From contig OZ038468.1 of NCBI GenBank assembly GCA_964036295.1, forward strand, positions 1,425,501-1,489,500: a DNA stretch of 64,000 bases. Reading direction: 5' to 3'. The notes under the pieces are model-generated. The model made no database searches, was not told where the DNA came from, and saw only the letters and a list, made by a program, of their open reading frames with translations. Shown here piece after piece: positions 2,197 through 58,483 of the stretch (positions are counted from its first letter, which is position 1; every line of letters starts with the position of its first letter). Source of the stretch: Plumapathes pennacea. Lineage: Eukaryota; Cnidaria; Anthozoa; Antipatharia; Myriopathidae. Position numbers and translations under genes: made by a program.

Positions 2197-5100
2197 TCAA
2201 GTTCCAGTTATAGCAGCTTCAATTTCTTCACGTCCAGACCATCCATGACTTTTCACAGCATTGTACACAACCATTACAAGAGTGGGGAACTCTGAAAGGA
2301 ATACATGATCTGTCAATACACTTTCCCTTAAAGCATTAGTAGGCAGCTCATTTGTAACATGTGCAAGAGTGTTCCTCACAAACCGAAGAAGATCCACAGC
2401 AGAGCTTGTGTCATACTTGCGTGACCTCTTCGACTTGGTCATCTCAGCATAGATTTGGGGAACTTTTCGATTCCAAGGGTTTACGATGAACTGAGGTTTA
2501 AGAGCATGTTCCAGGTCATGTTCCACTGGAGAAAGAGGGAATACCAAAAGACGGGGTCTTTCCACTTCAGGTTGGTTGGCAACTGCACACAGGAAACGAG
2601 TCTTCTTATCATTTGACCAAAACAGTGGATGCTTCAAAGCTTCAGCTGCCAATGGACGATCATCTTTGTTGTGGTTCACCATCAACTTCACCAGATCTGT
2701 GGCTTCAGGAGAGAGGTTTCCATCGATCATCAGCTTGTCGCTGCAAACGTTTGTCACTGTACCACTCTCAACAAGAATTGTGCTCTCTTCAGCCAGATTT
2801 GTGGGACCAAATGGATGCTTCTTATTTGACAGAAGGTAATGCAGCACCAAACCACAAGCAAACACATCAGTAGCTTTAGAGTGCTGCATGGCTCCCTTGA
2901 GAAGTTCAGGTGCCATCCAACATCTTGTGCCAGCTTTGCTGTGCATCACTGTTGTTGACTGTTTGGATCCAGTTGTTAGAGCCTTGCCACTAAGACCAAA
3001 GTCTGCCAGTTTCAGGCACAGCTTTGGGTGACGTCTGTAGAGGATGTTACTTGGTTTGACATCCCGATGAATAATGTTGTTTCCATGTAAGAAGTCTAAC
3101 CCCTTCAGGGCGTCTTGGCAGAGAGAGAGTAATTCTTTCTTCTTGACTTGTGTATTTAGTAGTTCCTCTATGGTTCCCTCCATCAGCTCTAGTATAATAT
3201 GTAAGAAATCCCGATTTCCATAGTAACTCAGGTAGCGTACCACATGCTCACACTCAGCAAGCCAGAGGAGATTATTTATCTCCCTACGGTCTTCAGGTCG
3301 GCACATCTTTTCTTTCTCTACTCGTTTCACTGCAACTTCCCGCCCATCACTTGAATTAATTCCAGCATACACATGACCAAAAGCACCAGACCCAATTGGT
3401 TCAGTATGGTAATGGAATAAGCCTGCTTGTTTTGTATTCTGACTTCGAGCAACTTGAGCCAGCAACTTCTTGTGTCTCTGAGATTTGGACACCCATGGAA
3501 GGTGTGGGTCAATCTCAAAGAGTATGATTTTTTGCAGCAGGAGTTCCAATAGTTTTGGTTTGTCTTGTGTTATATCCAGACAAGTCTTCCCCTCACCATC
3601 TGGAGTGTCCACTTCAGCACCATACGCACAAAGCCTTTGAATGATCTTACAGGTCAGCAGACCAGCATATTCCCTTTGGCACATAATATGCAGGGCAGTC
3701 TGCCCCTGTCTATTTGCACAATTGATCAGGTGTGCACCTGAAGAAACCAAAAAATCAACCACACCTAGCCTCCAAAATGATGTCTTTCCACTCTCTTTAC
3801 AAATCACATGTAAAGGTGTGTCTCCATTGCTGTCCACTGGGTACTTCTGACCATAAGGTGCTCCGGTAGCCTCAAGAAATGCTCTGACAAGATCGTAATT
3901 ATCAATTTGCAACAACAAGCACAAGATGGTGGATCCTTCATCATTCCCTTTCCAGAGATCCATGCCATAGTCGATAACTGTCTCCCACTGCATCTTCAGG
4001 GATTTATCTGCCATGTTTTGATAGACTCCACAGGTCTTGCCAGAACAAAGTTGGCTAGAAGCCAGCTTATGCCTGTAGTTGCTGAGTAATGGTGTATTTC
4101 CACAAAGATCTCTCCCATTGGGAAATGCCCCTTGGTCAAGCAAAAGCTTCGCTGCATTCCATGTCTCTGCCATGTGAAGGGGTGTTTCACCTCTACCATT
4201 TGCAACATTGAGTTGTGCACCTTTGGTGAGCAATTTCATTGCAATCTTATTAAGAGTTGGCTCAAGATCTCCATAGCAAATGGCATCATCATCATCACTG
4301 TTGTCCTCATCTGTGGCACAGCTGAGTACTTCAGGGTAAGTACATGATGCCCAAATATGTAATGGTGTATTCCCATCAATGATATCTCTACCTGCAACTA
4401 CAGTTCTTGCAAATGACGGAGCAGAGATGATGGAAGAAATCAACTCCAGAAAACTATGCGCAACCTCCATTTTGGAAGCATTTTGTGCCTTCTTTCCACT
4501 GGTCATACTTGGTACCAACTCTTGCTTCAGAAATTCCCTGAGCAGTAACAGCAAAAGGTGAATCACTGAGTTGTCTTCATAGGTTCTCACACTGACATCC
4601 ACCTTCATGTCATCAACCAAAAATATGCAGATCCTTTCCAGGGTACACATAGATTCTCTGTCAATCTCCTCCATTCTTGAGTGTGAGAGATAATGCAGTA
4701 ACAGAGTTTCTCCAGCGGCATTTCTAGCATCAACATTTGCTCCAAAGTTTTTTAACAATTTTACAATCTGGATTACAACATCACTAAGAACCCCTTCAGT
4801 GATGAGCAGAGCAGTGTAAAATAATGCTGAACTTCCTGTCTTGGCCTTAACAGTGGGATCAGCTGCAGAATGCTTTAGCAGAATGTCAAGAATGTCCAGG
4901 CGGCTATTCAGTACAGCAGAACATAGAGCAGTTTTTCCAGAACAATCTTCTATATTCACATCAGCACTATGGTCTAAAAGGTAGCAAACAACTTCAACAC
5001 TGCTACTTTCAGTAACAGCAGCAAACAAAGCAGTTTGACCTTGCAAATCAGTTATGTTGACATCAACATTGTCATGAGCCAAAAGCATCTGAATCACATC

Positions 5101-8070
5101 AAGGTTTCCCTTTTCAACAGCATAAAATAAAACTGTTTTTCCCTGATGGTCAGTCCTATTGACATTTGCACCATGAGTCAACAGAGCTTTGACAACAGCA
5201 ACATAGCCCTCATAAGCAGCAGCAAACAAAGCAGTGTGACCTCTTTCATCAGATTTGTCAAAAATGACCCCTGCACAGTTTAACAAAACCTCAACAACTG
5301 TAACATTCCCCTGTCCTGCTGCAGCAAACAAAGCAGTTTGACCATTTGAATTACTCACATTAATGTCTACACCATGGTTCACAAAAGCCTTAACAGCTTC
5401 AACATTGCCCTGCCGAGCCACCAGAAACAATGCAGTCTGACCCCACTGATCTCTTACTTTTGGATTAGCTTCATGATTCAACAGAGCCTTAACAACTTCA
5501 ATGCTGCCACCTTTAGAAGCAGCAAATAAAGCTGTCTGACCTCTTACATCAATGACATCCACATCAACATAATGATTCAATAACATCTCAACAACTTTAA
5601 GATTACAGACCTTACAAGCAGCAAATAAAGCAGTCTGACCTCTTACATCAATGACATCCACATTAACACCACGATTCAATAACATCTCAACAACTTTAAG
5701 ACTACCAACCTTACAAGCAGCAAACAATGCAGTCTGACCTTCACTATCAGTGATACTCACATCAGTGTTACCACAACTTAAGAGAGTCTGAACAACTTCA
5801 AGACTACCAACCTTACAAGCAGCAAACAATGCAGTCTGACCATCACTATCAGTGATATTCACATCAATGTTACCACAACTTAAGAGAGTCTGAACAACTT
5901 CAACACTATCACTCTTACAAGCAGCAAATAAAGCAGTTTGACCCTCCATGTTCATTACATTTACATCAGCACCATGACTCAACAAAACCTGGACAACTTC
6001 AACATTGCCCTTTTCAGCAGCAGCAACCAAAGCTCTCTTGCCAAAGTCATCAGCAGCATTTACATTGGCACCATGATTCAAGAGAACCTGAAGAACTTCA
6101 ATATTGCCCTTTTCAACAACAGCAAACAAAGCAGTGTTATGACAGTTAGCACCATGACTCAAGAGAACCTGGACTGCACCTTCAACATTGCTAATTTTAG
6201 ACTCAGCCAACAAAGCGGTCAATGGAACATAGACAACTTCAGCGTTGTCTGTTACATCTAAAGCAGTTTGGCCATTAGTATCAGTTATACAAACATCAGC
6301 ACCATGACTCAAGAGAACCTGAACGATTTCTGCACTACCGTTCACTGCAGCAGCAAACAAAGCAGTCTTTCCACTTTTGCCAACTGTTTTATTCACATCA
6401 GCACCATGATTCAACAGAAGCTGAACAACTTCAACATTGCCCTTCTCAACAGTAGCAAACAAGGCAGTCTTTTCATTGCAATCAGTTTTATTCACATCAG
6501 CACCATGATTCAACAGAACCTGAACAACTTCAACATTGCCCTTCTCAACACCAGCAAACAAAGCAGTCTTTTCATAGCAATCAGTTTTATTCACATCAGC
6601 ACCATGATTCAACAGAACCTGAACAACTTCAACATTGCCCTTCTCAACAGCAGCAAACAAGGCAGTCTTTTCATCATCATGAACAGTTTTATTCACATCA
6701 GCACCATGATTCAACAGAACCTGAACAACTTCAACATTGCCCTTCTCAACACCAGCAAACAAAGCAGTCTTTTCATAGCAATCAGTTTTATTCACATCAG
6801 CACCATGATTCAACAGAACCTGAACAACTTCAACATTGCCCTTCTCAACAGCAGCAAACAAGGCAGTCTTTTCATCATCATGAACAGTTTTATTCACATC
6901 AGCACCATGATTCAACAGAACCTCAACAACTTCAACATTGCCCTTCGCAGCAGCAGCAAACAAAGCAGTCCTTTCACTGTAGCCAACATCAGCACCATGA
7001 TTCAACAGAAACTGAAGAATTTCAACACTGCCCATTTCAGCAGCACCAAACAAAGTAGTATTTCTAAAGTGATCAGTTTTATTCACATCAGCACCATGAT
7101 TCAACAGAACCTGAACAATTTCAACACTGCCTATCACAGCAGCACCAAACAAAGCAGTACTTCCAAACAGATCAGTTTTATTCACATCAGCACCATGATT
7201 CAACAGAACCTGAACAACTTCAACATTGCCATTCTCAGCAGCAGCAAACAAGGCAGTCTTTTCATCACCACCAACAGTTTTATTCACATCTGCACCATGA
7301 TTCAACAGAACCTGAACAATTTCAACACTGCCTATCACAGCAGCACCAAACAAAGCAGTATTTCCAAACTGATCAGTTTTATTCACATCAGCACCATGAT
7401 TCAACAGAACCTGAACAATTTCAACACTGCCTATCACAGCAGCACCAAACAAAGCAGTATTTCCAAACTGATCAGTTTTATTCACATCAGCACCATGATT
7501 CAACAGAACCTGAACAATTTCAACACTACCTATCACAGCAGCACCAAACAAAGCAGTATTTCCAAACTGATCAGTTTTATTCACATCAGCACCATGATTC
7601 AACAGAACCTGAACAATTTCAACACTACCCTTCTCAACAGCAGCAAACAAGGCAGTCTTTTCACCAAACCTGTAGCCAACGGTTTTATTCACATCAGCAC
7701 CATGATTCAACAGAACCTGAACAACTTCAACATTGCCATTCTCAGCAGCAGCAAACAAGGCAGTCTTTTCATCACCACCAACAGTTTTATTCACATCTGC
7801 ACCATGATTCAACAGAACCTGAACAACTTCAGCATCGCCCTTTGCAGCAGCAGCAAACAAGGCATCGATCAATTTCACGTCCTCTTCGTTACGATTCAAA
7901 ATGGTCCGAACAGCCTCCCTGTTTCCTTGCATAACAGCGTCAAGCAAATTGGCACTCGCATATAAATCCTTTACCCCAATATCTGAACTTGCTCCTGTCC
8001 TGATAACTTTCGACGCCTGTTCTTCTGAACAATCTTGGGGCTCGGCTTCCGAAGGTTTCCTTTTTGCCAT
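2197..8070 (-). CDS. Gene A: ankyrin-kinase-KEN (RNase L-like) protein, 1957 aa
   Basis: Single uninterrupted frame. The start chosen is the ATG at 8070 (MAKRKPSE); the frame runs 7 codons further upstream but has only TTG there, and paralogues C and D also start MAKRKP. Residues about 40-1080 are some 32 ankyrin repeats of the TALFAA...LLNHGADVN type, followed by divergent repeats to about 1500. The kinase (about 1550-1820) shows GSGAFGHVYAG, VAVKRV, IIHRDVKPSNILY (about 1667), LADFGLSG (about 1688) and WMAPELL. The KEN domain (about 1850-1957) has NPW, then VDLLRFVRNTLAH, holding counterparts of the RNase L catalytic W, D, R and H. No signal peptide or membrane segment is seen, so it should be cytosolic or nuclear; the basic KRK start could act as an NLS. 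Predicted role: ligand-sensing, kinase-dimerised endoribonuclease. Human RNase L has nine ankyrin repeats and about 741 aa, so this is far larger. Confidence 0.9.
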   Translation of the reverse strand: MAKRKPSEAEPQDCSEEQASKVIRTGASSDIGVKDLYASANLLDAVMQGNREAVRTILNRNEEDVKLIDALFAAAAKGDAEVVQVLLNHGADVNKTVGGDEKTALFAAAENGNVEVVQVLLNHGADVNKTVGYRFGEKTALFAAVEKGSVEIVQVLLNHGADVNKTDQFGNTALFGAAVIGSVEIVQVLLNHGADVNKTDQFGNTALFGAAVIGSVEIVQVLLNHGADVNKTDQFGNTALFGAAVIGSVEIVQVLLNHGADVNKTVGGDEKTALFAAAENGNVEVVQVLLNHGADVNKTDLFGSTALFGAAVIGSVEIVQVLLNHGADVNKTDHFRNTTLFGAAEMGSVEILQFLLNHGADVGYSERTALFAAAAKGNVEVVEVLLNHGADVNKTVHDDEKTALFAAVEKGNVEVVQVLLNHGADVNKTDCYEKTALFAGVEKGNVEVVQVLLNHGADVNKTVHDDEKTALFAAVEKGNVEVVQVLLNHGADVNKTDCYEKTALFAGVEKGNVEVVQVLLNHGADVNKTDCNEKTALFATVEKGNVEVVQLLLNHGADVNKTVGKSGKTALFAAAVNGSAEIVQVLLSHGADVCITDTNGQTALDVTDNAEVVYVPLTALLAESKISNVEGAVQVLLSHGANCHNTALFAVVEKGNIEVLQVLLNHGANVNAADDFGKRALVAAAEKGNVEVVQVLLSHGADVNVMNMEGQTALFAACKSDSVEVVQTLLSCGNIDVNITDSDGQTALFAACKVGSLEVVQTLLSCGNTDVSITDSEGQTALFAACKVGSLKVVEMLLNRGVNVDVIDVRGQTALFAACKVCNLKVVEMLLNHYVDVDVIDVRGQTALFAASKGGSIEVVKALLNHEANPKVRDQWGQTALFLVARQGNVEAVKAFVNHGVDINVSNSNGQTALFAAAGQGNVTVVEVLLNCAGVIFDKSDERGHTALFAAAYEGYVAVVKALLTHGANVNRTDHQGKTVLFYAVEKGNLDVIQMLLAHDNVDVNITDLQGQTALFAAVTESSSVEVVCYLLDHSADVNIEDCSGKTALCSAVLNSRLDILDILLKHSAADPTVKAKTGSSALFYTALLITEGVLSDVVIQIVKLLKNFGANVDARNAAGETLLLHYLSHSRMEEIDRESMCTLERICIFLVDDMKVDVSVRTYEDNSVIHLLLLLLREFLKQELVPSMTSGKKAQNASKMEVAHSFLELISSIISAPSFARTVVAGRDIIDGNTPLHIWASCTYPEVLSCATDEDNSDDDDAICYGDLEPTLNKIAMKLLTKGAQLNVANGRGETPLHMAETWNAAKLLLDQGAFPNGRDLCGNTPLLSNYRHKLASSQLCSGKTCGVYQNMADKSLKMQWETVIDYGMDLWKGNDEGSTILCLLLQIDNYDLVRAFLEATGAPYGQKYPVDSNGDTPLHVICKESGKTSFWRLGVVDFLVSSGAHLINCANRQGQTALHIMCQREYAGLLTCKIIQRLCAYGAEVDTPDGEGKTCLDITQDKPKLLELLLQKIILFEIDPHLPWVSKSQRHKKLLAQVARSQNTKQAGLFHYHTEPIGSGAFGHVYAGINSSDGREVAVKRVEKEKMCRPEDRREINNLLWLAECEHVVRYLSYYGNRDFLHIILELMEGTIEELLNTQVKKKELLSLCQDALKGLDFLHGNNIIHRDVKPSNILYRRHPKLCLKLADFGLSGKALTTGSKQSTTVMHSKAGTRCWMAPELLKGAMQHSKATDVFACGLVLHYLLSNKKHPFGPTNLAEESTILVESGTVTNVCSDKLMIDGNLSPEATDLVKLMVNHNKDDRPLAAEALKHPLFWSNDKKTRFLCAVANQPEVERPRLLVFPLSPVEHDLEHALKPQFIVNPWNRKVPQIYAEMTKSKRSRKYDTSSAVDLLRFVRNTLAHVTNELPTNALRESVLTDHVFLSEFPTLVMVVYNAVKSHGWSGREEIEAAITGT
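6290..7880 (-). repeat. Near-identical ankyrin-coding units in gene A
   Basis: Tandem units of about 99-105 bp, several almost identical at DNA level. One unit ending in DQFG is present three times in a row (about 7310-7610), and a pair alternating VHDDE and DCYE tips is duplicated (about 6480-6960). Differences cluster in the codons for the loop between repeats. DNA-level identity points to recent unequal exchange rather than selection alone. Confidence 0.85.
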
Positions 8071-8517: not shown

Positions 8518-9737
8518 ATGGCGGCGGCCGAGCGCTGTAACAAACATCGCACAATTTGCGTCAGAGAAGAGTTCAAAATCGCTGTCAAACTTGCTCTTGA
8601 CAAATTCAGGTTTGACGATAGTCAGAAAGGTACGCTGAATACGTTTTATTTTGTTTACTAAGTCAACTCTTGTGTTTTTTATTGATTTTCAAGAAATGTT
8701 TTCACAGGTTTTGCCAGGTTCTGGGATTAAAGTTCGAAGAGTCGTGGGTAAGTATAGCTGAAGTAATGATAATCTGTGCCGGTAGAATTATAAATTCAGT
8801 TACAGTATTAAACTCATAACCATTTCTGTGGGGAGGTTTTATGAAATCTTTTTCTGACGTCAAGGATCTATACTTGATACTCAATACTATATTTCAAATT
8901 TCAAGTGGCCAATATCAAAAGCCAATAAATACGCTATAACAAAACAAAGACAAAGTATTCTTCGATACTTTTATATAGCTCTGCCAGATTGAGTGGCCGT
9001 TTAGCGAAGGTTCTTTAATCCACAGGAACATGTTTTTTGAAGCATCCCAAAACGATCCCAATGATCGCAGTTGGAATTGATTCGCACATTACAGCGGCGG
9101 TGAAGTGTTAATTTGTTTTGTACACTATGTACCTTCATCTCTGGTAACTACTGTTTTTCTGGTAATCGAGTCTCACCTTCTCAACACTCACAGCCATTAT
9201 AGGCTTATATTTAAGCACTTTGTTTTGTACACTATGTATTTTCATCTCTGTTAACCATTCTTTTTTGGCAGGCCGGGGTTCAAGAGACAACAAATTCAGT
9301 GCAAAATTGAGTGGCAGCACACCTCAAGTGCCTCCCCCTCTCAGAAATAATGAATTAACCTCATTCTGACAAGAGCTGCCAATATTTGGATTGTGAGAAC
9401 AGTTCTTGAAGATGATTTCTGAATTTCAGGTATTAAGTTAAATTTTACTTTTAATTTCTAAAGAGTATAGAAATATGGTGTAAAAAAATTTTATATTTTC
9501 ATAGTGGGTCAGATATTAGGCAGCCAGTATTATATATATAATAAATTAAGGATCTTTTCAGCATAAAAAAGGGCAAACTATTTACAGCAGTAGCTGCTAA
9601 GTATTTCACTGCTATGAACTGAAACTAGACCTAGATGGAAATCAATTCTAAAATACCTAATAACCAAACTTGAGTTTTAATTATGTTCACAGATTGTTCT
9701 GGTGTCAGGAGAAACTGGTTTTGGGAAAACAACCCAG
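8518..9737 (+). pseudogene. YTHDC2-like R3H/DEAH helicase pseudogene, 5-prime exons (copy 1)
   Basis: Exon 1 (8518-8629) starts ATGGCGGCGGCC and encodes an R3H-domain start containing EEFKIAVKLALDKFRF, closely resembling EEVKIAVNIALERFRY of human YTHDC2 from memory; it ends at a GT donor. A short exon-like piece near 8708-8747 is bounded by AG and GTAAGT. A third exon (9272-9429) reads like the YTHDC2 linker before the helicase core, but carries in-frame TGA codons at 9367 and 9394. A fourth (9693-9737) encodes IVLVSGETGFGKTTQ, a Walker A motif with F where S is usual. Exon phases 3 to 4 join in frame. No later helicase motifs or YTH domain follow, so this is a 5-prime fragment, now broken. 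The parent protein is an m6A-reading RNA helicase. Confidence 0.75.
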
Positions 9738-12700
9738 GTAAAACTACCTGATGGAGTAAAGATCAGTGCATTCATTGACAGACTGATACACTCAGGAGCA
9801 GATTTAGGGGGGGGGGGGGGGAGTTGATCTAGTGGCTAGCCAACCCCCCTCCCCCTTTGAAGTAGCAATTTGTGCAGGTGTCTCAATATAAGGCATTTTG
9901 TTTTCTAGCATTCGATAATATGACATTTTACTGTGTACTAAAGTGGTCTCAAAATGTGGGAAAAAGCATTTCAGAGACACGAGAGAGGAGTGAAATAGTG
10001 TGCATGAAGAAGGACGTAAAGTAATAATGTCCAAGTTACTAAAGCATTATATTTGAAATGTGCATATACCTTTTTATAGGGGGGGGGGGGGGAGGGTCCC
10101 ATCATAAGCTTTATACTGCATGCACCACCTCAAAGTTAGTATCACTTTCAAACATCTATAAGGGGATCAATTTTGTCTTTTTGGTCTGAAATAGGGTAGT
10201 AGATTTTGCATATTGTTGGTATTTGGTCTGCAGAAAATAGGGTGAAATGTTTTAGGATACAGAGTCTGAAATAGGGTTCAAGAATTGCATATAGTTTTTT
10301 TGAAATTAGGGTTGAAAAATCATACAGTTTAATTTGAAGTGGGGGAAGGGTTTTGAAAACACTCCAACTCAATTCACCCCCCACCCCTCCCCCGAGAAGG
10401 TTTTTAGAGCAGAGCCACACCACAGGCGGCTCAAGCTTGGTATCTACAGTTGTTGTGTAACTCAAGATTATAAGGAAATATATGGGGACTTTAACAATCA
10501 TGGAAAATCATAGGATTTGATAATAAAACTCAAAATAAACTTTCACTACCTGGTTGTTGTCTCCTATGTCCCTTGTATCAACTTGAAGCTGCTGTGGCCA
10601 GTATTATTAGTAGAAATTCCTGCTGGTGTTTCCTTCCCCAGTTTCCATTTGAATAAGAGATGTCAGCTTGTATAGATAGAATAATTACATATTTTTTTTT
10701 TTAGATTTCCCATATACACCACTTTTTGCTAAAAACAAGTTACAGTCGGAGAGTCCGTGTTTAGGCAAAAAAAAACAAAAAAACAAACAGACAAACAAAC
10801 AAAACAAAACAAAACAAACAAAAATAAAAAATAGAGAAAGAGAATGAGGTAATTGAACATAATATGTTTACCAAATAAATCATGAGGACAATATCAATAA
10901 TACATCAGTTTATTACACTAAAAGTACTTATTAATATTTTAACATTATTTTAATGCTTGCAGGTCATTATACTACACATTGTACTACAAAATTGAAAACT
11001 AACAAAGTTTTTTTTTGGTGCAGTTGACTATGTTTCTGAATGCCGTCTTATAGACTAATTAGTATATGTATATTTAATAAATTTTAAAAGCCTTTGGCCT
11101 ACAAATTACCTCACCAGCACACACTAGCTTTGCTATTTGCTGTTGCATAGAAATCTCAATATTGCCATGCCATTTTTCTAATATTTTACTTATTTTGTAT
11201 CTAAACTAATACATTTTTCTATTATCACAAAATATCATGAATACATGGTATACTTTTTAGAAAAGAAAACTTTTAAGCAACTAAGTTCATATCCAAGTAT
11301 TGTAATATTACCAGTGACAACTGGCTACATTGATACAACGTCCATATACAAAGGACTGTAGCCAGCTATAAATCAGGCCAGGAATAACAGCTCTATAGTG
11401 CACAAGTCTCTTTACACATGCATATTGGAGACTTGCATTGTTTCAGCCTTGTTCACAGGGCTTCCCCAAAACTTTGAAAAAGCCCTGAGAACTAGCTTTG
11501 CATTATTTGTGTTATAACACCCCAAAAATCCTAGTCTCTAATTTAAGCCCTTAACTTACACCTGGTAAGAACCAGCTACTCTCTTTGGATGTTCTCTGCT
11601 GTACCATAAAACAGTATCAAAAAATCTACTGGGCAATAGTTATTCAATTTTGGAATATTCCTTGCACATAATAAAAGTCATGACCAGCTCTTAACAAAGT
11701 TCATCAGTGTAGCAGCAATATTGAACACACACCACATGCATGTACTGTGTGGCAATCCATTATGTTGGATAGCTGCAGTGTTCCTTGATCTTTGAAGGGA
11801 CAGAGTGCATAGTAGATCATCCTTCTGAATCCAAATGGGATAACTGGGTTAAGCCTTCAGTGCAAAGCCAGGGAATGTTCCAGTACAGTGCTATGTATCA
11901 AATATACAACAACGCAAGTGTGATATTTAGAACAGTCAATTACAGGCACATCCTGTTTCACAGGAGAGAATTGCTCATAGGGTTCCACAGATGACGTACT
12001 GACAGTTTGTATTGATGTTCACATTGTACTCCAAAGCCATAATGATGTCCCAACATGTTTTGGGTGCACATCCAGCTGCTCCCATTCACTCCCACGTGTT
12101 CCACAGAAGACAAAATGCTCAGGGTTCCATAGATGACACACAGACAGTTAGTATTGATTTGCATGTTGTACTCCAAAGCCATAATGGTGTCTCGATATTC
12201 TTTAGATGCAAATGTAACAGCTGCTCTCACTCACTGTTTCTGTCTTTTGTCTGTGAACAGAGATAATCCAGCAGAGCAGGTTTTACTGTTTGATGTTTCA
12301 TTTCACTTAAACTTTATCACAGCAGCTCAAACAACCAAATCAACTCAACTGGAAGAATTATTGAGAGTTATTAAAGCAGGTATTTCCAGTCAGTTCAGTG
12401 TAAGTTTCTTGCAGCTGTGCAACTGGGTGAATATAACAATGTGGTCCTTCTGCAGAGATTCTGTGTTGCAGTAACTGAACCCAACAAAGTCTTGTAAGGA
12501 CATTCTTTTTGTCTGAAGTTGAAATTGTTCTGTTCTTTATAAACAGCTCTTGATGATCAGTTCTTGTGTTGTACTGGACTGGTAAAATCTCTCAGTCAGA
12601 GCAGGAACAGCAAGAAGATTCCACAGAATGTCCTCATATAGACTCACAGTGTTGTATGGTTGACTCTGAGATCCCAACATGTCACACCAACAAGTTCATC

Positions 12701-13777
12701 AACTGATCCAAGCCATGCTCAATATTGTTGAGCTTGCATCGTAGTGTTGGCCATGCACCAGACTGAATGAAACTCAAATTCACTTCGTTGCCATTCACAA
12801 TTCAACATCATCTAGTACACTAAGTAATACACATGGTCCATCCATCAATCATTTCTGACTCAGAATTTGTAGCGATACTCAGCACTGTACACCAAGGAAC
12901 CAAACAGCACCACTTGGCCAGAAGCTCAGCTGATTTCGGGCAGAAGAATGTTTCTTTACATCAACAAATGAACAGTCTGTCCAGGTTGATCAGAGCTGGT
13001 CAATAATACTTGGCAGTATTGGAAAGTTTAGTCCAGTCTGCCTGTCTACAAATACTGATTCACTAATAATTTAAGAAACCAATAATGGTAAAAAGAATCA
13101 AATTAAGTGGGTAACAGAAAACAAAGGCCTGCTGATTGAACGTCTTTCACACATTAACTGCAGGTAGTTATAGTAAGTTGATTAGTAAAGTATCACTTCC
13201 TACAATATATTTTAAAATCAAAGAGAAATAAGATAAAACTGTCACATTAAAATTTGTAGTCTGAATACCAGACCAAATAAAACGAAACAAAAAAAATGTA
13301 TAAATTAATGTGCAAAAATTTTTTAAATTGTGTGTAGATTTGATTGGTTTCAATACATTTATCAAAAAATAATCATATGGTAAAGGGTTGGAGAATGTCA
13401 AAAAATTGTTGCTGATATTTACTGAAAAAGATAAAAAATATTTGACCAATTTACTGGTGTAACATTATTTTGTTTTGTTGCTCAGTATCTTTCATAACTT
13501 GTACATTAAAGTCTTTGGATGACTGTAGAAAAACAAAGCAATCACAGAGCCAGTCAATGAGGAGAGCAAAAGCATTTTCAACCAATAATATTGGTCAAAT
13601 TTGTAATTATTACGAGTATGAGGAAAACCAAGTGATAATTATGATTGGCTCTAACAGTAAATTGGCAGTGGAGGACATGCTATCACCACTTGCTCTCTTG
13701 TGTGAGAATATCACAAACACATTTTGCTTTTGCTTTTACTCTTGATTGGCCAAGGCTGTTGCTAAACTTGTTTGGAC
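9738..13777. other. Unit 1 spacer: G-tracts, simple repeats, no gene
   Basis: Poly-G runs occur at about 9806-9821 and 10080-10092, an A/C-rich simple repeat at about 10770-10815, and T-runs elsewhere. Positions about 11979-12122 and 12123-12260 are a diverged tandem duplication of period 144 (both begin gggttcca, then agatgac, and share tactccaaagccataatg). Only short frames occur. A diverged third copy lies at 49314-53750. Confidence 0.6.
12261..12379 (+). other. Exon-like remnant, unidentified (copy 1)
   Basis: A 119-bp stretch sits between an acceptor-like tctgtgaacag and a donor-like AG-GTATTT and is open on the plus strand, encoding DNPAEQVLLFDVSFH and onward to LEELLRVIKA. The borders and frame are kept in copies at 21641-21759 and 52305-52423. 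The diverged third copy has mostly amino-acid-changing substitutions, so it looks unconstrained. I do not recognise the family. It may be an exon fossil of the same plus-strand gene, or of another. Confidence 0.3.
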
Positions 13778-13925
13778 TACAGTCAACTCGACTCTATAAG
13801 GCAGACACCCTCAGAAGTTATGATTGAGCGTGCCACCTTAGAGAGAGTTCAGTTACACAGAAACAAGTGAAAAGCGTCAAAGGACCAAATCTGTAGAGAG
13901 GTGTGATTAGAGAGAGTTGACTGTA
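13778..13925. mobile_element. TA-flanked MITE (copy 1)
   Basis: Terminal inverted repeats: TACAGTCAACTC at the left and GAGTTGACTGTA at the right, with further inverted similarity inside (tagagagaggtg). A TA flank fits a Tc1/mariner or pogo-type element. No transposase is encoded, so it is non-autonomous. Confidence 0.65.
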
Positions 13926-14039
13926 ATCGGAAGGTGTTGCAAACGCAAAAACCAAACCAATGACTCAATTAGTTTTGAAAGTCATGTGAAAATGGCTCTT
14001 ATTCAACATACAGTACTTTACCAAGACCAACTGCAGTTC

Positions 14040-14180
14040 TCTTGAGATGAAGTGCACTAAATGGCCAGGTTGCACGTTGCCCATCATAACTGCCACACCT
14101 GTCAAAAAGAAAAGAGAAAAAAAAAAAAAAAAGAAAAAGAAAAAAAAAAAAAAGAAAGAAAAAGAAAGAAAACTACTCAC
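14040..14180 (-). promoter_or_regulatory. Conserved polypyrimidine/AG module 3-prime of the ankyrin gene
   Basis: On the minus strand a long T-rich tract is followed by TGACAG and then GTGTGGCAGTTATGATGG. The same tract plus GTGTGGCAGT sequence recurs downstream of gene E (about 34835-34890), in the third segment copy (about 54070-54175) and downstream of gene F (about 63345-63480). It has the form of a splice acceptor for a 3-prime UTR exon. Splicing is inferred, not shown. Confidence 0.35.
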
Positions 14181-14253
14181 AACATGATATTACTGGTGAT
14201 GAATCAATGAAACCTTTGTTCTGGTACATACCATGTTAATTTTGTAATGACTA

Positions 14254-14536
14254 TTATATTTTCATCATTTCTTCAAAAAAAAAATTCAGGGGTCCAGAAG
14301 GAGGGTTCAGGTTTTGTCTACATACACATAGAAGAACCTGAACAACTTCAGAAATGGCCCTCTTGGCAGCATATGCAACCAACAAAGCAGTCCAAGTATG
14401 CTCACAACTTTTGTTTAAATCAGCACCATGATCCAAGAGAAACTGAACAACTTCAACATTGCCCTTCTCAGCAGCTACCTACAAACAAAGCACTCCAATG
14501 AAACTGACTGCTTTTGTTCACATCAGCACCATGACT
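14254..14536 (-). pseudogene. Decayed ankyrin repeats beyond the gene B1 stop
   Basis: After the B1 stop the minus strand still encodes ankyrin pieces, but in shifted frames: HGADVNKS in one frame, then AAEKGNVEVVQFLLDHGADL and SEVVQVLL in another. Gene B therefore once had at least two or three more repeats, cut off by a small deletion and a frameshift. An identical copy follows B2 at 23634-23916. Confidence 0.7.
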
Positions 14537-16765
14537 TCATGACTTCTCAGCAGCAGCCAACAAAGCACCCTGGCCAGACTGAGCACCATGATCCAAGAGA
14601 ACCTGAACAATTTCAGCATTGCCTTTCTTAGCAGCTTTACTCAAAGCAGTCTGACCATACTTATCAAGTGTGTTCACGTCAGCACCATGAGTCAAGAGAA
14701 GCTGAACAACTTCAACAGTAATGAAAAGGGTCTCAGCAGCAGCATGCAAAGCTGTCCTACCATCCTTATCAGTTTGGTTCACATTAGCACCATTACCCAA
14801 AAGAGCCTCAATCACATTTTTACCTTTTTTACCTGCTTTAACAGCAGCAAACAAAGCAGTCTTACCATCCTTGTCAGTTATGTTCACAAAGGCATGATCG
14901 AACAAGAGAGCCATAACAACTTCAACTTTGCCCTCCTCAGCAGCAATAAACAAGGCAGTCTGACCATTGTTGTCAACTTTGTTGACATTAGCACCATGCC
15001 TCAAGAGAAACTCAGCAACTTTTCTGCCACCATAATAAGCCTCAGCAGTACAAAACAAGGCTGTTCTACCATCTTTACGAGTATGGTGCAAATCAGCACC
15101 ATAATCTAAGAGATCTCTAACAAACTCCATTGCACCCCCTTTAGCAGCAGCAAACAAGACTGTCTCACCATTGTTAGCACTTATATTCACATCAACACCT
15201 GAACGCAAGAGAACTGCACCATAGTATACCAGGTTCTTATAAGCAGGAGAAAACAAAACTGTTTCACCCTTCTTATTAGTTTTATTCACATTAGCTTTAT
15301 GATCCAATAGAACCTGAATAAGTTCAAAACTATTCTGACCACCAAAAGCAAAAAACAAAGGAGTTTTACCACTCTCAGGCTCTACTGGGTCCACATGAGC
15401 ACCATGACTCAAGAGAACCTTAGCAACTTTAAGATGGTCACCAGAAACAGCAGCATGTAAAGCAGTCCATCCAACTGCATTAGTTGTATTCACATCAGCA
15501 CCATGTTTTATCAAATCCTCAACAACTTCAGCATTGTCAAACTTCTTTGCAGCAATATACAAAGCAGTCTCTCCACTTCTAGTTCTTATGCTTACATTAG
15601 CAGCATGACTCAATAGAACCCTAACGACTTGCCACCTGGCCCACCTAACAGCCATAAACAAAGCAGTCTCACCTTTCACAACTGTATTAACATCAACTCC
15701 ACATTTCATAACATTCTCAACTTCCGCAACATTACCTTTCTTTACACTTGCAAATAGTGCATCCTGAAGCTCCTGATTGGTTGGACTGCCAAGAGTTTCT
15801 GGCACTTCAGGCAGTCGTTGCCTTTGAGGCAAGGCTTCCAGTGCGAGGCTTTCTTGACACTTTTCTGGAATTTCTTGACGTTCTTCATCATTGCTGACTA
15901 TCTTTTTTCTTACCACACATGCTTTCTCAAAATCTGAAAAACATTTTCTTAGAGTAACCTCAGTTTTCTCACCTAATTCTCTTAGATTTGGCTCTGATGA
16001 ACTTCGAGTAACCTGGCTTTCTCCATTTTCTCTTTTCCTTGTTTTAGTGACTGTGTTTGCCAAAAGGAGGTCAACACATGCATCTATGTACTCTCCTTCA
16101 TCCATTTTCACAGCAGTCTGTGGCTTTTTCCCACCAGTTATCTTCATCACCTCCTCTGTCAGCAGGAACTCGTCCAGGGATTCTTTAAGAGAGCCATCTT
16201 GGTACCACTTCCATAACTCTCTGAGTGCTTGGATACTTTCTGCCCGGACGAAAAGGCGAATGGAGCCTTCTTCAGCACCCTCCGCAGCAATACCTACTGG
16301 CAGCCTCAACAAACGAAGATCTGGAAGCCTTCTAAGGATCAAATCAAACGGACTTAACAAGGCTTCTACAACACGAGTGAATTCATGAATGTTCTCGATC
16401 CACCAATTAATTGTAAGTACTTGACTCCCACTAGCACAATCTCGTACCTGTTTCTTGACCAATGTCATCCTAGATATCTTGCTTCCAAATTCCCTGACCC
16501 TTTTCAATAAGTCATCCCTTTCCAGATACTCGAAAGATGCCTTTAACAAACGAATGTTGTCCCAGCCCAATTTCTTTTCGGTCTCCAACGCAGAAAACAA
16601 CGCTTCGAAAGACCTGGCATTGCTTAAGGCACGCTCTGTTATCCCTCTGAAATGATCTTTCATTTTCCTCAGTAGTGCACGATGATCAGGATCATTATTT
16701 AAACTATCTATAACCTCAGCTCTGAAATTGTTATAGTGAACCTGGGCAGCGTCAAAAGAAGACAT
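14537..16765 (-). CDS. Gene B1: death-effector-like / TRADD-N-like / ankyrin protein, 742 aa
   Basis: Start taken at the ATG at 16765 (MSSFDAAQ); the frame extends upstream to 17233 but without an ATG and through repeat DNA. Residues about 27-95 resemble a death effector domain and end with the RxDL-type signature in ERDDLLKRV (83-86). Residues about 115-205 include IRLFVR and LWKWYQDGSLKESLDEFL, resembling the TRADD N-terminal domain; this is a weaker call. A charged linker follows (about 206-330), then about 13 ankyrin repeats (332-742). It has no kinase or KEN domain. The last repeats are truncated at EKS-stop and fossil repeats continue downstream. Likely a cytosolic adaptor joining a ligand-binding ankyrin surface to death-fold (caspase-8/FADD-like) signalling. 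It could instead be another death-fold subtype. Confidence 0.75.
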   Translation of the reverse strand: MSSFDAAQVHYNNFRAEVIDSLNNDPDHRALLRKMKDHFRGITERALSNARSFEALFSALETEKKLGWDNIRLLKASFEYLERDDLLKRVREFGSKISRMTLVKKQVRDCASGSQVLTINWWIENIHEFTRVVEALLSPFDLILRRLPDLRLLRLPVGIAAEGAEEGSIRLFVRAESIQALRELWKWYQDGSLKESLDEFLLTEEVMKITGGKKPQTAVKMDEGEYIDACVDLLLANTVTKTRKRENGESQVTRSSSEPNLRELGEKTEVTLRKCFSDFEKACVVRKKIVSNDEERQEIPEKCQESLALEALPQRQRLPEVPETLGSPTNQELQDALFASVKKGNVAEVENVMKCGVDVNTVVKGETALFMAVRWARWQVVRVLLSHAANVSIRTRSGETALYIAAKKFDNAEVVEDLIKHGADVNTTNAVGWTALHAAVSGDHLKVAKVLLSHGAHVDPVEPESGKTPLFFAFGGQNSFELIQVLLDHKANVNKTNKKGETVLFSPAYKNLVYYGAVLLRSGVDVNISANNGETVLFAAAKGGAMEFVRDLLDYGADLHHTRKDGRTALFCTAEAYYGGRKVAEFLLRHGANVNKVDNNGQTALFIAAEEGKVEVVMALLFDHAFVNITDKDGKTALFAAVKAGKKGKNVIEALLGNGANVNQTDKDGRTALHAAAETLFITVEVVQLLLTHGADVNTLDKYGQTALSKAAKKGNAEIVQVLLDHGAQSGQGALLAAAEKS

Positions 16766-16887
16766 TGCTTCTACAAGCAGTAGCTCTGCACAGAATTTTG
16801 AATTCCTGTATGAAACAAAATTTACATTATAGCTACTTACTGTGCACCTACCGCCTTCTTGAATCCGGGGACGCCGAAGACGAAGAA

Positions 16888-16955
16888 CATCCTCGTTCCC
16901 AGGCTCTTTCCCTACCGGGGGGCGGGGTAGGAAAAATAGCCTGGGAACGGGGATG
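16888..16955. repeat. Inverted-repeat hairpin (copy 1)
   Basis: The left arm catcctcgttcccaggctc and the right arm agcctgggaacggggatg are near-perfect inverted repeats around a G/C-rich loop. The agcctg end resembles the hairpin elements at 32557 and 60401. It lies about 120 bp upstream of the gene B1 ATG, so it may sit in its 5-prime UTR or promoter. No clear target duplication was found. Confidence 0.5.
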
Positions 16956-18015
16956 GCCGAAAAACACCCCCGACTCGCGACGAACGGAGCTTGTCCCAGG
17001 GGCAGTGTGATTTTATTATGTCGGGTAGCCCCAAAAAGTTGTGGATGCGAAGGACGACTTTTGTCAGAAACGGCTTGACAAAGAGTCAAGCTATAAAACC
17101 ATTCGGCCCTGCACCACCGGAAGTTTGGCAACGCACCATGCGTGAGTTTTTGGACGTTCTGGAAAGCGCGTATAGGTCTAGTGGATGAGTTCTTTATCGC
17201 CGGATTTGGCACCACTGAGGAGGAAGTGATCAACTACAGCTTTAAGCAAATAAGCGTGCCTCCCTCGGAAAATGCCGACAGTGGCATCTCAAACTGAATC
17301 AGAGACACAAAGTGACGACAGAAGAATGTGGAGTTCCAGTGGCTGAGACAAGACAAGACACCACATCAATGAACACCATCAAGGGGTTCCTGGCAGAAGC
17401 ATCAGAGTTATGTTGTTATCATGTGAGCAAACCACTCACCGTCCAGGCGCGACGCGTTCATGTAAGTCGTGCTGATGCAGGAAGGTCAACATGGCTGTTA
17501 CGTTTTACGAGCTCCTTCGCTAACACTGATACACACATAACCTTTATTTTATCTCGACTTTTAGAGTAGATTTTACAAACTAATGTCTCCAAGAAAAAGA
17601 AAATAAACCAGAGAAAAATTTAAGATTTGATACATAAAAAAAAGCAATATTTACATCATATACACTGTATACATTATATGATGAATAAAAAATTGCATAA
17701 ACTTGAAATTCTTCTTTTCAATTTATTCAGTGATCTACAAGTTCCAAAGTCATAGGGCAGTGAGTTTCAGCTTCTTGCATCCAAAGACGATAAAGTAATT
17801 AATGCTTTCACAAGCAACGATGTCAATTTATTGTGACAGTTACAAATTAAAAAGGCAGCATCATACATTTTGGCGCTTGGTAGCTTCTTGTGAGTATCGC
17901 TCACTTGCATTTCTTCTTCAGTGGTTTGGAGTATTTCCAGCATGATTTTATCAGTAAAAGGGTTTAAAATGTCACATCAAGGGCTGGAGGTTTAGCAAAG
18001 AGTCTCCACATAACT
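16956..18015. other. Intergenic region between gene B1 and C-prime
   Basis: This contains the 5-prime side of gene B1 (to about 17560) and the 3-prime flank of the truncated C-type gene (about 17570-18015). Short open frames are present, none recognisable. The part from about 17716 on is alignable with 54730-55003, the 3-prime flank of gene D, so it is the ancestral 3-prime flank of C-type genes. Confidence 0.5.
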
Positions 18016-18411: not shown

Positions 18412-18651
18412 GTTTTTTGAAGCATCCCAAAACGATCCCAATGATCGCAGTTGGAATTGATTCGCACATTACAGCGGCGGTGAAGTGTTAATTTGTTTTG
18501 TACACTATGTACCTTCATCTCTGGTAACTACTGTTTTTCTGGTAATCGAGTCTCACCTTCTCAACACTCACAGCCATTATAGGCTTATATTTAAGCACTT
18601 TGTTTTGTACACTATGTATTTTCATCTCTGTTAACCATTCTTTTTTGGCAG

Positions 18652-23157: not shown

Positions 23158-23305
23158 TACAGTCAACTCGACTCTATAAGGCAGACACCCTCAGAAGTTA
23201 TGATTGAGCGTGCCACCTTAGAGAGAGTTCAGTTACACAGAAACAAGTGAAAAGCGTCAAAGGACCAAATCTGTAGAGAGGTGTGATTAGAGAGAGTTGA
23301 CTGTA
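23158..23305. mobile_element. TA-flanked MITE (copy 2)
   Basis: Duplicate of the element at 13778-13925, with the same TACAGTCAACTC termini, carried along by the segmental duplication. Confidence 0.65.
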
Positions 23306-55003: not shown

Positions 55004-58000
55004 TTATTGGGCCGCATTTATAGCTGATGCAATATCTTGACGTTGGTCCCACTTGTGTGCCACTACAGCTTTGTAAACAGTCATCAACAGGGTCGGAAAC
55101 TTGACTAGGAACACAAAACCCTCGAGGACACTCGTCTTCATATCAGATGTCAAGCTAGACAGATGTGCATAAGTGTTCCTCACAAACCGAAGGAGATCCA
55201 CAGCAGAGTTTACTCCATATGTTCGTGACTTCTTCGATAGCTGCATCTCAACATACAGTTGAGGGAACTCGCTATCCCATGGATTGGCAGCAAACTGGGG
55301 ACCAAGGGCATTCTCAATCTCTTGTACCACCGGGGAGAATGAATAGTGATGAGAACTTGCAAGTTCTTCTTGGTTTCCAACCACACGAAGGAGATCAGCC
55401 TTCTTATGGTTTGACCAAAAGAACGGGTGCTTTAAAGCAGCAGCTGCAGAGGGGCGACGAGCTTTGTCCCAGCTCAGCATCAACTTCACAAGTTCTTTAG
55501 ATTCTGCTGAGAGGTATGCATTAACCACAAGCTTATTCTTTAAAATGTTATCTTCTGTCTTATGTTGGATGACAAAGATACTCTCATCAGATTTGCATGC
55601 AGGTTCAAATGGGTGCTTCTTCCCTGACAGAAGGTAATGCAACACCAAACCACAGGCGAACACATCGGACTCCTTTGAGTGTTCCATAGTCTTCCCAAGA
55701 AGCTCAGGGGCCATCCAGCACCTTGTTCCAGCTTTGCTGTGCATAACTGTTGTTGTTATTGCACTTTCAAGTTTTTCAGCTTTGCCACTGAGTCCAAAAT
55801 CTGCCAGCTTCAGACAAAGCGGTGAGCACTTGTAAAGGATGTTGCCTGGTTTAATATCTCGGTGAATGGTGTTGTTTCCATGCAAAAAGCTTAAACCAGC
55901 AAGGACATCTCTACAAAGAGACACTTCTTCCTTTATGATGTCTGTATCCAGTAGCTCCTCTAAGGTTCCCTCCATCAATTCTAGTACAATGTACAAGAAA
56001 TCCTGGTCTCCACTGTAACTAAGATATCGCACCACATGCTTGCAGTCAGCCAATTGGACAAGGTTTTTGATCTCTCTTTGATCCTCGACTCGATCCATCC
56101 TGACCCTCTCTATCCGTTTCACTGCAACTTCCCGTCCATCTTTTGAATCAAGACCAGCGTACACATGACCAAAAGCGCCTGATCCTATTGGCTCGGTGTG
56201 GTAATGGAAGGAGTCTATGTGGAGCTTGTTCTGACCTCGAGCGACTTGATCAAGCAACTTCTTGTGCCTCTCCGACTTACGTGACCATGGAAGCCAGGGT
56301 TCAACCTCAGAGGACTTTATTTCCTGTTTCAGCAGAGCTACCACCTCAGGCTTGTCTGCAGCTACATCAAAGCAGGTCTTTCCCTCGTCATCTGGAAGGT
56401 CAGTTTTAGCACCATATTCACGGAGCCTTTGAATGATCTCCACTGACAGTGGATCAGCACTTTTCCTCTTGCAAGCAATGTGAACAGCTGTCTCCCTTCT
56501 GCTGTTCAAACGATTGACCATGTGTGGAGTTGATCGAACAAGAAGATCAATCAGATACAGCTTCCAGAAGTTATCCTCTCCATTGTCCCTGCAAATTACA
56601 TGCAGGGGCGTCTCTCCATTGCTGTCCACTGGGTATTTACGACCATAAGGTGCTCCTGTGGCTTCTAAAAATGCTTTGACCACATCAAAGGAGTCTCCTG
56701 TCAACATCAAGCTCAGGACAGTTTCTCCTTCATCATTGGCTTCCCAAGGATCAAGTTTACAGCCAAAAACTTCTTTCCATTCCTGGCAAACAGTTTCAGC
56801 TTTCATGTCATCATAAACATGTAAAGAGTGATTTTCTATGTTCTGCTTCACATGTGTCAGCAATGGCGTATTGCCTAAGTTGTCTGTTGCGGTTTGTAGT
56901 GCTGTATGGTCCAGCAGGATTTTAGCTGCACTCCATTTCCGTGCCACGTGGAGGGGTGTTTCCCCATTACTATTTGGAGCATTGACTTGCGCATCTTGAG
57001 AGAGTAACTGTGATCCCACATCATTGACGATGGACTCCAGAGTTGGCCCTGGGTCAGCTGTACTGGCTCCTCCGACCATTATGCTGTGTTCTCTTGGGTA
57101 AGTTAGCGATGCCCAGAGATGTAATGGTGTATTTCCATGAACATCATCTCTACTCGAAACCATGGTCTTTGCAAAAGTAGGAGAGGATAAAATTGACTTG
57201 AACAACTTCGATAAACTCTGAGCAGCGTCAATTATTGACGTGGCTTGTACCTTCCAAGTTTGTGGGCTTTCTTCACCCAGGATGTCTTGCAGGAGCATTA
57301 AAATTGCATGGATCACTGAATGCCCACTGCGAGATCTGACATTGATGTCGACCTTACTCTCAAGTAGGAAGTGGCATACTGCAACTAAATTATGCACTGA
57401 ATCTCTCCCCATCTTCATTTTCCTTGCATAAGAAAGGTAGTAAAAGAGAAGAGATTCTCCAGAAGCATTTAGAGCATCGACAGCTGCTTTGTGTTGCACG
57501 AGCAATTTCACAATCTGAATTACGAGATCACTAGAAAATCCATCAGTGAACAGTTGAGCCATTTGAAATAAGACAGAGTTTCCTTCCTGATCCAGAATGT
57601 TTGGATTTGCTCCCTCTGTAAGTAGAATATCAATTACTGCCATACTCCCACCATTTATCGTGCAAAGCAATACAGTCTGACCTTCCCCGTCCTTCAGATT
57701 CACATCATCAACACCATGTTGCAAGAGAGCCTGAACAACTTCAACATTTCCTTTCGAGGCAGCAATGAACAAAGCTGTCTGACCCAAGTGGTCAGTTATG
57801 TTTACATTGATACCACAACGAAGGAGGATCTGAACGACTTCAACATTCCCTTTCAAGGAAGCAGAAAACAAAGCAGTCTGACCTGAACAATCAGTTTCAT
57901 TTATATCTATACCATCATGACTAGTAAGAGCCTCAACAACTTCGACATTAACCTTTGAAACTGCAACAAATAGAGCCGTCTGACCATCCTCATCAGCGAT

Positions 58001-58483
58001 GTTTGGATTAACAGCAGCATGGCTTAGAAGAACCTGGACAACATTTAAGTGATCTTCTTCAACAGCAGTAAACAGAGCAGTTTGACCCCTCCAATCAGTA
58101 ACATTGACATCAATCTTGTGACTTAACAGAACTTTGACAATCTCAACACTGCCTTGCAAAGCAGCAACAAAGAGAGCTGTCTGACCATCTTTGTTAGTTA
58201 AATTTACATCTGCACGAAAGCTCAAGAGAACCTGAACAACTTCCAGGTTTTCCTTCTCAACAGCAACGAACAATGCAGTCTCGTCGCTCCAGTTCGTCAC
58301 ATTTACATCAACAGCTCTATCATTTAACAGCGCCCGAACAGCTTCAACTTTGCTCTGCCGAACAGCATCAAAGAATTCTTTCTGGGCAGTTTCATCTCTG
58401 GTCGCTAGAGCCGCTTCTCTCCTCGGGACCTTCAAAGCTGAAGAAATATGTTCAAACTCGATTTCCGGTTTCCTTTTCGCCAT
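55004..58483 (-). CDS. Gene D: ankyrin-kinase-KEN (RNase L-like) protein, 1159 aa
   Basis: Close paralogue of gene C along its whole length; ATG at 58483 gives MAKRKPEIEFEHISS. About 9 canonical ankyrin repeats, one more than C: the extra unit (about 57590-57690) contains LLCTINGGSMAVIDILLTEG. Kinase about 760-1020: GSGAFGHVYAG, VAVKRIERV, TIHRDIKPGNILY (about 874), LADFGLSG (about 894), WMAPELL. KEN about 1055-1159: NPWDSEF and AVDLLRFVRNTYAH with the catalytic counterparts kept. No frame damage is seen despite many substitutions against C, which suggests both are maintained. Predicted cytosolic or nuclear endoribonuclease. It lies downstream of no DED-ankyrin gene now, because that neighbour has been deleted. 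Confidence 0.92.
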   Translation of the reverse strand: MAKRKPEIEFEHISSALKVPRREAALATRDETAQKEFFDAVRQSKVEAVRALLNDRAVDVNVTNWSDETALFVAVEKENLEVVQVLLSFRADVNLTNKDGQTALFVAALQGSVEIVKVLLSHKIDVNVTDWRGQTALFTAVEEDHLNVVQVLLSHAAVNPNIADEDGQTALFVAVSKVNVEVVEALTSHDGIDINETDCSGQTALFSASLKGNVEVVQILLRCGINVNITDHLGQTALFIAASKGNVEVVQALLQHGVDDVNLKDGEGQTVLLCTINGGSMAVIDILLTEGANPNILDQEGNSVLFQMAQLFTDGFSSDLVIQIVKLLVQHKAAVDALNASGESLLFYYLSYARKMKMGRDSVHNLVAVCHFLLESKVDINVRSRSGHSVIHAILMLLQDILGEESPQTWKVQATSIIDAAQSLSKLFKSILSSPTFAKTMVSSRDDVHGNTPLHLWASLTYPREHSIMVGGASTADPGPTLESIVNDVGSQLLSQDAQVNAPNSNGETPLHVARKWSAAKILLDHTALQTATDNLGNTPLLTHVKQNIENHSLHVYDDMKAETVCQEWKEVFGCKLDPWEANDEGETVLSLMLTGDSFDVVKAFLEATGAPYGRKYPVDSNGETPLHVICRDNGEDNFWKLYLIDLLVRSTPHMVNRLNSRRETAVHIACKRKSADPLSVEIIQRLREYGAKTDLPDDEGKTCFDVAADKPEVVALLKQEIKSSEVEPWLPWSRKSERHKKLLDQVARGQNKLHIDSFHYHTEPIGSGAFGHVYAGLDSKDGREVAVKRIERVRMDRVEDQREIKNLVQLADCKHVVRYLSYSGDQDFLYIVLELMEGTLEELLDTDIIKEEVSLCRDVLAGLSFLHGNNTIHRDIKPGNILYKCSPLCLKLADFGLSGKAEKLESAITTTVMHSKAGTRCWMAPELLGKTMEHSKESDVFACGLVLHYLLSGKKHPFEPACKSDESIFVIQHKTEDNILKNKLVVNAYLSAESKELVKLMLSWDKARRPSAAAALKHPFFWSNHKKADLLRVVGNQEELASSHHYSFSPVVQEIENALGPQFAANPWDSEFPQLYVEMQLSKKSRTYGVNSAVDLLRFVRNTYAHLSSLTSDMKTSVLEGFVFLVKFPTLLMTVYKAVVAHKWDQRQDIASAINAAQ

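Follow-up and report, generated by a model that had tools for sequence, protein, structure and literature searches.

The 64,000-nucleotide stretch of DNA analysed here (the window), positions 1,425,501 to 1,489,500 of contig OZ038468.1 (G000:C7 in our numbering) from the 290-Mb, 24-contig assembly of Plumapathes pennacea, carries on its minus strand a cluster of genes that join ankyrin repeats, a protein kinase and a KEN nuclease domain in one polypeptide, as vertebrate RNase L does. On balance, it is probable that these genes encode cytosolic sensor-nucleases built on the RNase L/IRE1 plan, that they share ancestry with RNase L and have expanded in this genome, and that they are not triggered by 2',5'-oligoadenylate (2-5A) in the vertebrate manner. 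They likely work as RNase L does, with an ankyrin sensor, a dimerising kinase and a KEN nuclease.

Window genes with the layout of RNase L

Four complete genes were found as open reading frames (ORFs) without interruption: gene A (2197..8070; 1957 amino acids from the first Met), gene C (27396..30782; 1128 amino acids), gene D (35067..41846; 2259 amino acids) and gene E (55004..58483; 1159 amino acids), all on the minus strand, where the corresponding stop-to-stop frames span 2197-8115, 27396-30845, 35067-41891 and 55004-58513. In each of them ankyrins are followed by Pkinase and Ribonuc_2-5A (KEN) domains, all above the curated Pfam cut-offs, with E values of 5e-51 to 3e-53 for the kinase and of 4e-12 to 1.5e-13 for KEN (46.8-51.4 bits against a cut-off of 23.3). 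The Pfam profiles place kinase and KEN at about 3402-2620 and 2601-2242 in gene A, 28592-27816 and 27794-27438 in gene C, 36281-35502 and 35483-35133 in gene D, and 56194-55418 and 55393-55046 in gene E. A profile of the window-type ankyrin unit, which undercounts diverged repeats and finds 6 units in human RNase L, detected 29 units in A, 7 in C (beside diverged ankyrins), 42 in D and 8 in E. The preliminary description of this DNA had claimed four complete genes with ankyrins, kinase and KEN in a single chain, and the Pfam profiles bore this out, with a significant KEN match where the lack of one had been named as a ground for giving up the reading.

The partial fifth gene of that description (gene B, 18016..18468, minus strand, 150 amino acids) does exist, but only as the end of a KEN domain, its last 100 residues being 100% identical to the KEN end of gene C. 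A sixth KEN domain at the right edge had been missed (63718-63999, in the 3' end of a minus-strand gene, L018, that crosses the window boundary at 63691..64000); completed from the assembly, L018 is an ORF of 1405 amino acids with ankyrins (15 window-type units), Pkinase and KEN, and over kinase-KEN it is 90% identical to gene D. Gene E is a paralog of gene C (93% identity in kinase-KEN), and the segments that hold these two genes are about 92-95% identical. Judging from the uninterrupted frames, a first Met near the ORF start in all four and the similar N-termini (MAKRKP in A, C and E; MEKRKL in D), each gene appears to consist of a single coding exon.

No membrane-spanning stretch of the IRE1 type was detected in A, C, D or E by hydropathy alone, no dedicated predictor of signal peptides or membrane spans having been run: the best 19-residue Kyte-Doolittle means were 1.52-1.90 and fell within ankyrin or KEN sequence, below the 2.41 of human IRE1, in agreement with the earlier claim that signal peptide and membrane span are missing. 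Among the 15 family ORFs from outside the window described below, a hydrophobic start was seen only in L013 (2.08 from the first Met). The structure predicted for the gene C product (mean pLDDT, the predicted local distance difference test, 87.5) was compared by Foldseek, and its top match was human RNase L (4oau, E 4.3e-23, 1122 columns). Thus, both the soluble ankyrin-kinase-KEN order and this structural match uphold the assignment to the layout of RNase L rather than to that of IRE1.

The family in the source genome and in other Anthozoa

A KEN profile run on the whole assembly gave at least 23 matches, a lower bound, which comprise 19 kinase-KEN ORFs of this family, fragment B, one protein of a leucine-rich repeat (LRR) type and two exons of IRE1. 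Four of the 19 ORFs lie in the window and 15 outside it, the edge gene being counted with the latter, and they are distributed over contigs C6, C7, C8, C9, C10 and C12, so that the expanded family proposed from the window alone was confirmed at the level of the genome. Their lengths range from 503 to 2274 amino acids, and Pfam ankyrins were found in the same ORF in 18 of the 19, the exception being L021, with kinase and KEN only. This ORF (503 amino acids) and two other short ones, L017 (758 amino acids) and L023 (637 amino acids), may have been cut off from part of their ankyrin arrays. A divergent member, L025 (G000:C8, near 10197000), with few recognisable ankyrins and DFN in place of DFG, stands on a long branch. 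The genome also has a separate IRE1 gene of several exons (L011, two of them matched). The LRR type (L009; G000:C3, near 24270510, locus 1944-4319, plus strand) is a single ORF of 792 amino acids with LRRs, a stretch resembling a membrane span, a kinase with ADFD and a KEN domain, and its branch in the tree is long and joins IRE1 (99/90); it is a putative LRR receptor with an IRE1-type kinase-nuclease on the cell-interior side.

When relatives were searched, 7992 candidates were scored and 2414 matches obtained, of which the best 120 were listed. A precomputed KEN domain was present in 119 of these 120 (the exception being P0116), and 11 carried a species name, namely Dendronephthya (2), Actinia tenebrosa (5), Desmophyllum, Porites, Acropora and Actinostola. 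All 11 are Anthozoa (lineages were looked up for two), as expected if the DNA comes from an invertebrate, which had been the first impression. In the tree, the paralogs of this genome branch apart from the clades with species names, and the window ORFs have relatives up to 69% identical in their sub-lineages. Vertebrate contamination was considered and rejected: in the trees described below no window protein fell inside a vertebrate RNase L clade, the placement that had been named beforehand as fatal to the proposal, and the species-named relatives among those listed are all anthozoan.

Catalytic residues, selection and array turnover

In the alignment, the Lys of VAIK, the Arg and Asp of HRD and the Asp of DFG were present in all 19 ORFs of the genome, with HRD complete in 19 and DFG in 18 of them, the remaining one reading DFN. 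Equivalents of the RNase L catalytic residues W632, R667, N668 and H672 were likewise present in 19 of 19, and the D661 equivalent was Asp in 14. The same kinase and KEN residues were retained in 28 other family rows of the alignment, bar one DFG Asp. From these motifs the kinase of the family looks active, unlike that of mammalian RNase L.

The ratio of nonsynonymous to synonymous substitution (Ka/Ks) over kinase-KEN was 0.21-0.25 in the six pairs of window paralogs. Between genes C and E it was 0.24 for kinase-KEN, 0.38 for the middle part and 0.69 for the ankyrin part, the last from few substitutions. The ankyrin arrays change length fast, since gene D has 42 units and its 90%-identical neighbour L018 has 15; such very unequal arrays suggest varied or fast-changing ligands.

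Relationship to RNase L and IRE1

The preliminary description had left two explanations for the layout, either a deeper origin or an independent fusion of ankyrins to an IRE1-like kinase-nuclease. Three phylogenetic trees of the kinase-KEN cassette were built. The first combined 38 of the 120 listed relatives with the four window proteins, 7 RNase L and 7 IRE1 rows, and in it IRE1 (yeast included), the RNase L of amniotes and the ankyrin-kinase-KEN proteins (ANK-KEN) came out as separate groups. For the second, 12 of these rows were dropped and 17 from the source genome were added, and the third left out L009, L025, P0166, P0111 and P0055, five rows that were long or unstable. In the third tree ANK-KEN and RNase L were united at 99/97 against the IRE1 of yeast, of vertebrates and of the source genome, with ANK-KEN as sister to RNase L and not inside it. 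In approximately unbiased (AU) tests on these data, the grouping of RNase L with animal IRE1 was rejected (p 0.03).

A count of group-consensus sites was made in order to allow for long branches. Nine sites united ANK-KEN with RNase L against IRE1 with yeast, compared to one site of the second kind and none of the third. In simulations under two independent-origin trees the mean was 1.9 such sites and the maximum no more than 7, nine being reached in none of the 500 runs under either tree; under the common-origin tree the mean was 5.9 and nine were reached in 58 of 500, although the model used (LG+F+G4) is blind to functional convergence. An earlier count (7, 1 and 0 sites, with 200 simulations each) agreed. 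Among the shared derived sites are two signatures common to the family and RNase L, with exceptions in the family: VGN[QE], where IRE1 has VSDR, and F[IV]RN, where IRE1 has A[ML]RN.

The linker that leads from the ankyrin array to the kinase can also be aligned. In gene C (28635..28685, minus strand) it reads W...S..H...L..V.R, against WKPxSxxWxxxLxxLxR in RNase L. Of 124 family proteins, made up of the four window genes and the 120 relatives listed, 113 have its W...S element, and in 6 of the other 11 the W and the S are one residue further apart. When a profile of the family linker was run on 13 RNase L rows (human, pig and 11 of 48 matches of a search), their own linker was the best window in 9 of the 13, rows that are related and amount to far fewer independent tests. 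In the reverse direction, the best window for the RNase L profile was the linker itself in 30 of 113 family proteins. As the absolute scores are within reach of those of shuffled sequence, this likeness is suggestive only.

Several results weigh against a common origin. By raw sequence the cassette is closer to human IRE1 (30% identity, 139 bits) than to rodent RNase L (24%, 67 bits), which comes partly from the decay of the RNase L kinase. In the AU test on the data of the third tree, the grouping of ANK-KEN with animal IRE1 was left standing (p 0.196), and with the first data set, which had fewer IRE1 rows, neither alternative was rejected (p 0.274 and 0.195). These results would also agree with a history in which ankyrins were joined to an IRE1 kinase-KEN separately in cnidarians (perhaps by retrocopy, the window genes being uninterrupted ORFs) and in vertebrates, in such a way that the likeness to RNase L would be convergent. 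The kinase, which looks active as in IRE1, fits such a history too, and KEN has been fused anew elsewhere, as in the LRR-membrane-kinase-KEN ORF of the same genome. Even so, we regard independent fusion as rather unlikely: nine shared derived sites were never reached in the 1000 simulations under the two trees that embody it, the union of RNase L with animal IRE1 was rejected in the later data set, though not in the earlier one, and the alignable linker lies outside the kinase. Therefore, a common origin with RNase L is favoured, being in our estimate roughly twice as probable as independent fusion, and of the two explanations first offered the evidence leans to the deeper origin without settling the matter.

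The trigger

The aromatic residues W60 and F126, of ankyrins 2 and 4, were located in the sequence of human RNase L; mutations tie them to its 2-5A site, according to the available text of PMC5927464. In a sequence-pattern test, which misses some repeats, the repeats matched in A, C, D and E all lacked an aromatic at the equivalent position. In the family as a whole an aromatic was present in 109 of 2137 matched repeats, from 50 of 124 proteins, and in three repeats of gene D a tryptophan precedes this position by one residue (GWNTAL) and so escapes the pattern. Because the pocket aromatics are missing from the matched repeats of the window, the trigger is unlikely, judging from these repeats, to be 2-5A held in precisely the vertebrate manner, while binding of 2-5A in another mode is possible. 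Searches of the source genome with the OAS1_C profile and with human OAS1 gave no match for OAS, but they were run without a positive control and absence is not claimed.

If the family were a true 2-5A-dependent RNase L, a cnidarian OAS would supply the 2-5A and the whole pathway would be present, a possibility that the preliminary description raised, as one of two, in speaking of a deeper origin of the pathway. The layout and the top structural match to RNase L agree with this, as do two reports: in its available text, a 2018 survey (PMC6307210) records OAS in Acropora, Nematostella and Orbicella, and the part of PMC8476169 that could be consulted places homologs of both OAS1 and RNase L among the Nematostella genes that respond to poly(I:C). 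The missing pocket aromatics and the failure of the uncontrolled searches to find OAS in the same genome speak against it, and we hold it to be improbable; thus, the presence of the pathway was not upheld, and a family of sensor-nucleases that are probably not triggered by 2-5A in the vertebrate way is preferred.

A 9376-bp duplication and the DED-like/ankyrin ORFs

A stretch of 9376 bp is repeated head to tail in the window, at 8944..18319 and 18324..27699, the two copies being 99.98% identical, which reflects either a very recent duplication or a false duplication in the assembly. The fragment called gene B exists because of this repeat. Each copy also carries on the minus strand an ORF (14537..17233 and 23917..26613) with an identical translation of 898 amino acids, in which a DED-like N-terminus (Pfam DED, E 1e-6, under its own cut-off) precedes 11 window-type ankyrin units and the frame terminates at an in-frame stop within the array; between the first of these ORFs (14537-17233) and gene A no kinase-KEN match was found. 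The conserved region ahead of the ankyrins (RAESIQALRELWKWYQDGSLK...) recurs in part at six other sites of the genome; the structure model of the DED-like region was poor (pLDDT 51) and was not used. In two of the relatives, P0004 and P0008, a counterpart of this N-terminal region (about 34% identity) is joined to ankyrins, kinase and KEN within a single chain, a hint, from these two proteins and not from the KEN genes of the window, that some members of the family may be coupled to cell death.

This duplication speaks for a repeat-driven cluster of decaying copies, as its products are one truncated KEN domain and a pair of identical DED-ankyrin ORFs with stops within their arrays; also, three of the 19 ORFs (L017, L021 and L023) are short. 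That the cluster as a whole consists of non-functional remnants or of assembly artefacts is nevertheless barely credible, given that 19 ORFs on six contigs retain every catalytic residue checked, that kinase-KEN of the window genes has the Ka/Ks values given above, and that related proteins are found in other Anthozoa. For A, C, D and E this explanation is largely refuted.

Other features of the window and the assembly

A minus-strand ORF of the window (44119-44934) resembles the region of Penelope-like retroelements that encodes their GIY-YIG endonuclease. Elsewhere in the assembly, about a dozen Wnt-like copies are clustered at 7.00-7.10 Mb of G000:C10, several with stops inside the match, which points to a local Wnt expansion with some members probably decaying; more than 20 matches to the Wnt C-terminus were found in the assembly, against about three Wnt genes in demosponges, a count that fits a cnidarian and makes a sponge source unlikely. 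For the GFP family a search of the assembly gave no match, again without a positive control, and absence is not claimed.

Discussion

The results are best accommodated by a sensor-nuclease that would act in the following way. The N-terminal ankyrin array would sense a ligand, and its binding would dimerise the protein, by analogy with RNase L and IRE1. The kinase domain, whose motifs are present, would bind ATP and probably autophosphorylate, unlike mammalian RNase L, and the paired KEN domains, with their catalytic residues in place, would cut RNA. The kinase-KEN cassette would go back to an ancestor shared with vertebrate RNase L that had diverged from IRE1 ahead of the cnidarian-vertebrate split, a descent with moderate support, and the fusion to ankyrins through the shared linker may have been inherited from this ancestor as well.

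RNase L is commonly counted as a vertebrate protein, as the preliminary description pointed out, and the occurrence of proteins of this kind in Anthozoa is not altogether new. The available text of the survey cited above (PMC6307210) reports RNase L absent from four sponges and eight other animals, Acropora, Nematostella and Orbicella among them, in which OAS was present, and concludes that the corals, the anemone and the sponges it surveyed lack the OAS/RNase L pathway. Three cnidarians are thereby reported to be without RNase L, whereas anthozoan relatives have already been deposited and a Nematostella homolog is called RNase L in the accessible part of PMC8476169. What could be consulted of PMC3710099 mentions fusions of KEN with kinase, together with ankyrin repeats, and expansions in Oikopleura and in monocots, and a 2026 review (PMC12922763, citing Chu et al. 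2023), as far as its accessible text goes, places the presumed coupling of RNase L with OAS in jawed vertebrates. A description of the cnidarian ANK-kinase-KEN family as such was not found in the open literature, subscription papers being mostly outside the search.

Given a cnidarian-type genome with 19 intact kinase-KEN ORFs laid out as in RNase L, and a nuclease cassette that leans to RNase L and not to IRE1, the origin of this antiviral enzyme becomes directly testable, and the data suggest that the design of an ankyrin sensor joined to an RNA cutter is far older than vertebrates. If the ancestor had an active kinase and another ligand, sensing of 2-5A would be a late addition. A wider proposal can be put forward tentatively, as a conjecture that we would not yet back: RNase L could be all that vertebrates have kept of an old animal family of sensor-nucleases with ankyrins, kinase and KEN, a family that in genomes of the cnidarian type grew into an NLR-like repertoire of tandem genes with a conserved RNA-cutting output, a recognition end of ankyrins with fast turnover, some DED-like fusions and ligands other than 2-5A. 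Coupling to OAS and 2-5A would have come later, with loss of the kinase activity.

Compared to known systems, the family shares with RNase L the order ankyrins-linker-kinase-KEN in one soluble polypeptide, the RNxxxH catalytic motif and the W632 equivalent, together with F[IV]RN and VGN[QE] in most members. It differs in several respects. Mammalian RNase L is a pseudokinase, and HQD was found in 7 of 7 RNase L rows and DFD in 6 of 7, where the family has HRD and DFG; RNase L has nine ankyrin repeats, whereas arrays in the family reach 42 units of one type; the W60/F126 aromatics are missing from the window repeats; and the family has many paralogs per genome, encoded by ORFs without interruption. 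As neither a degenerate kinase nor the 2-5A pocket was found, these proteins are not called RNase L itself. With IRE1 they share the kinase-KEN cassette, intact kinase motifs and the Arg, Asn and His of KEN, but they have ankyrins instead of a luminal domain and a membrane span. The same domains are found in the anthozoan proteins LOC114530986 of Dendronephthya gigantea and LOC116300910 of Actinia tenebrosa and in those of Acropora muricata, Porites lutea, Desmophyllum pertusum and Actinostola, which are 42-48% identical to the window genes over kinase-KEN and have mostly been deposited as uncharacterized or hypothetical, one being named after a phosphatase ankyrin subunit. By their kinase-KEN similarity, their shared domains and their place in one group of the tree, the window genes are assigned to this anthozoan ANK-kinase-KEN family.

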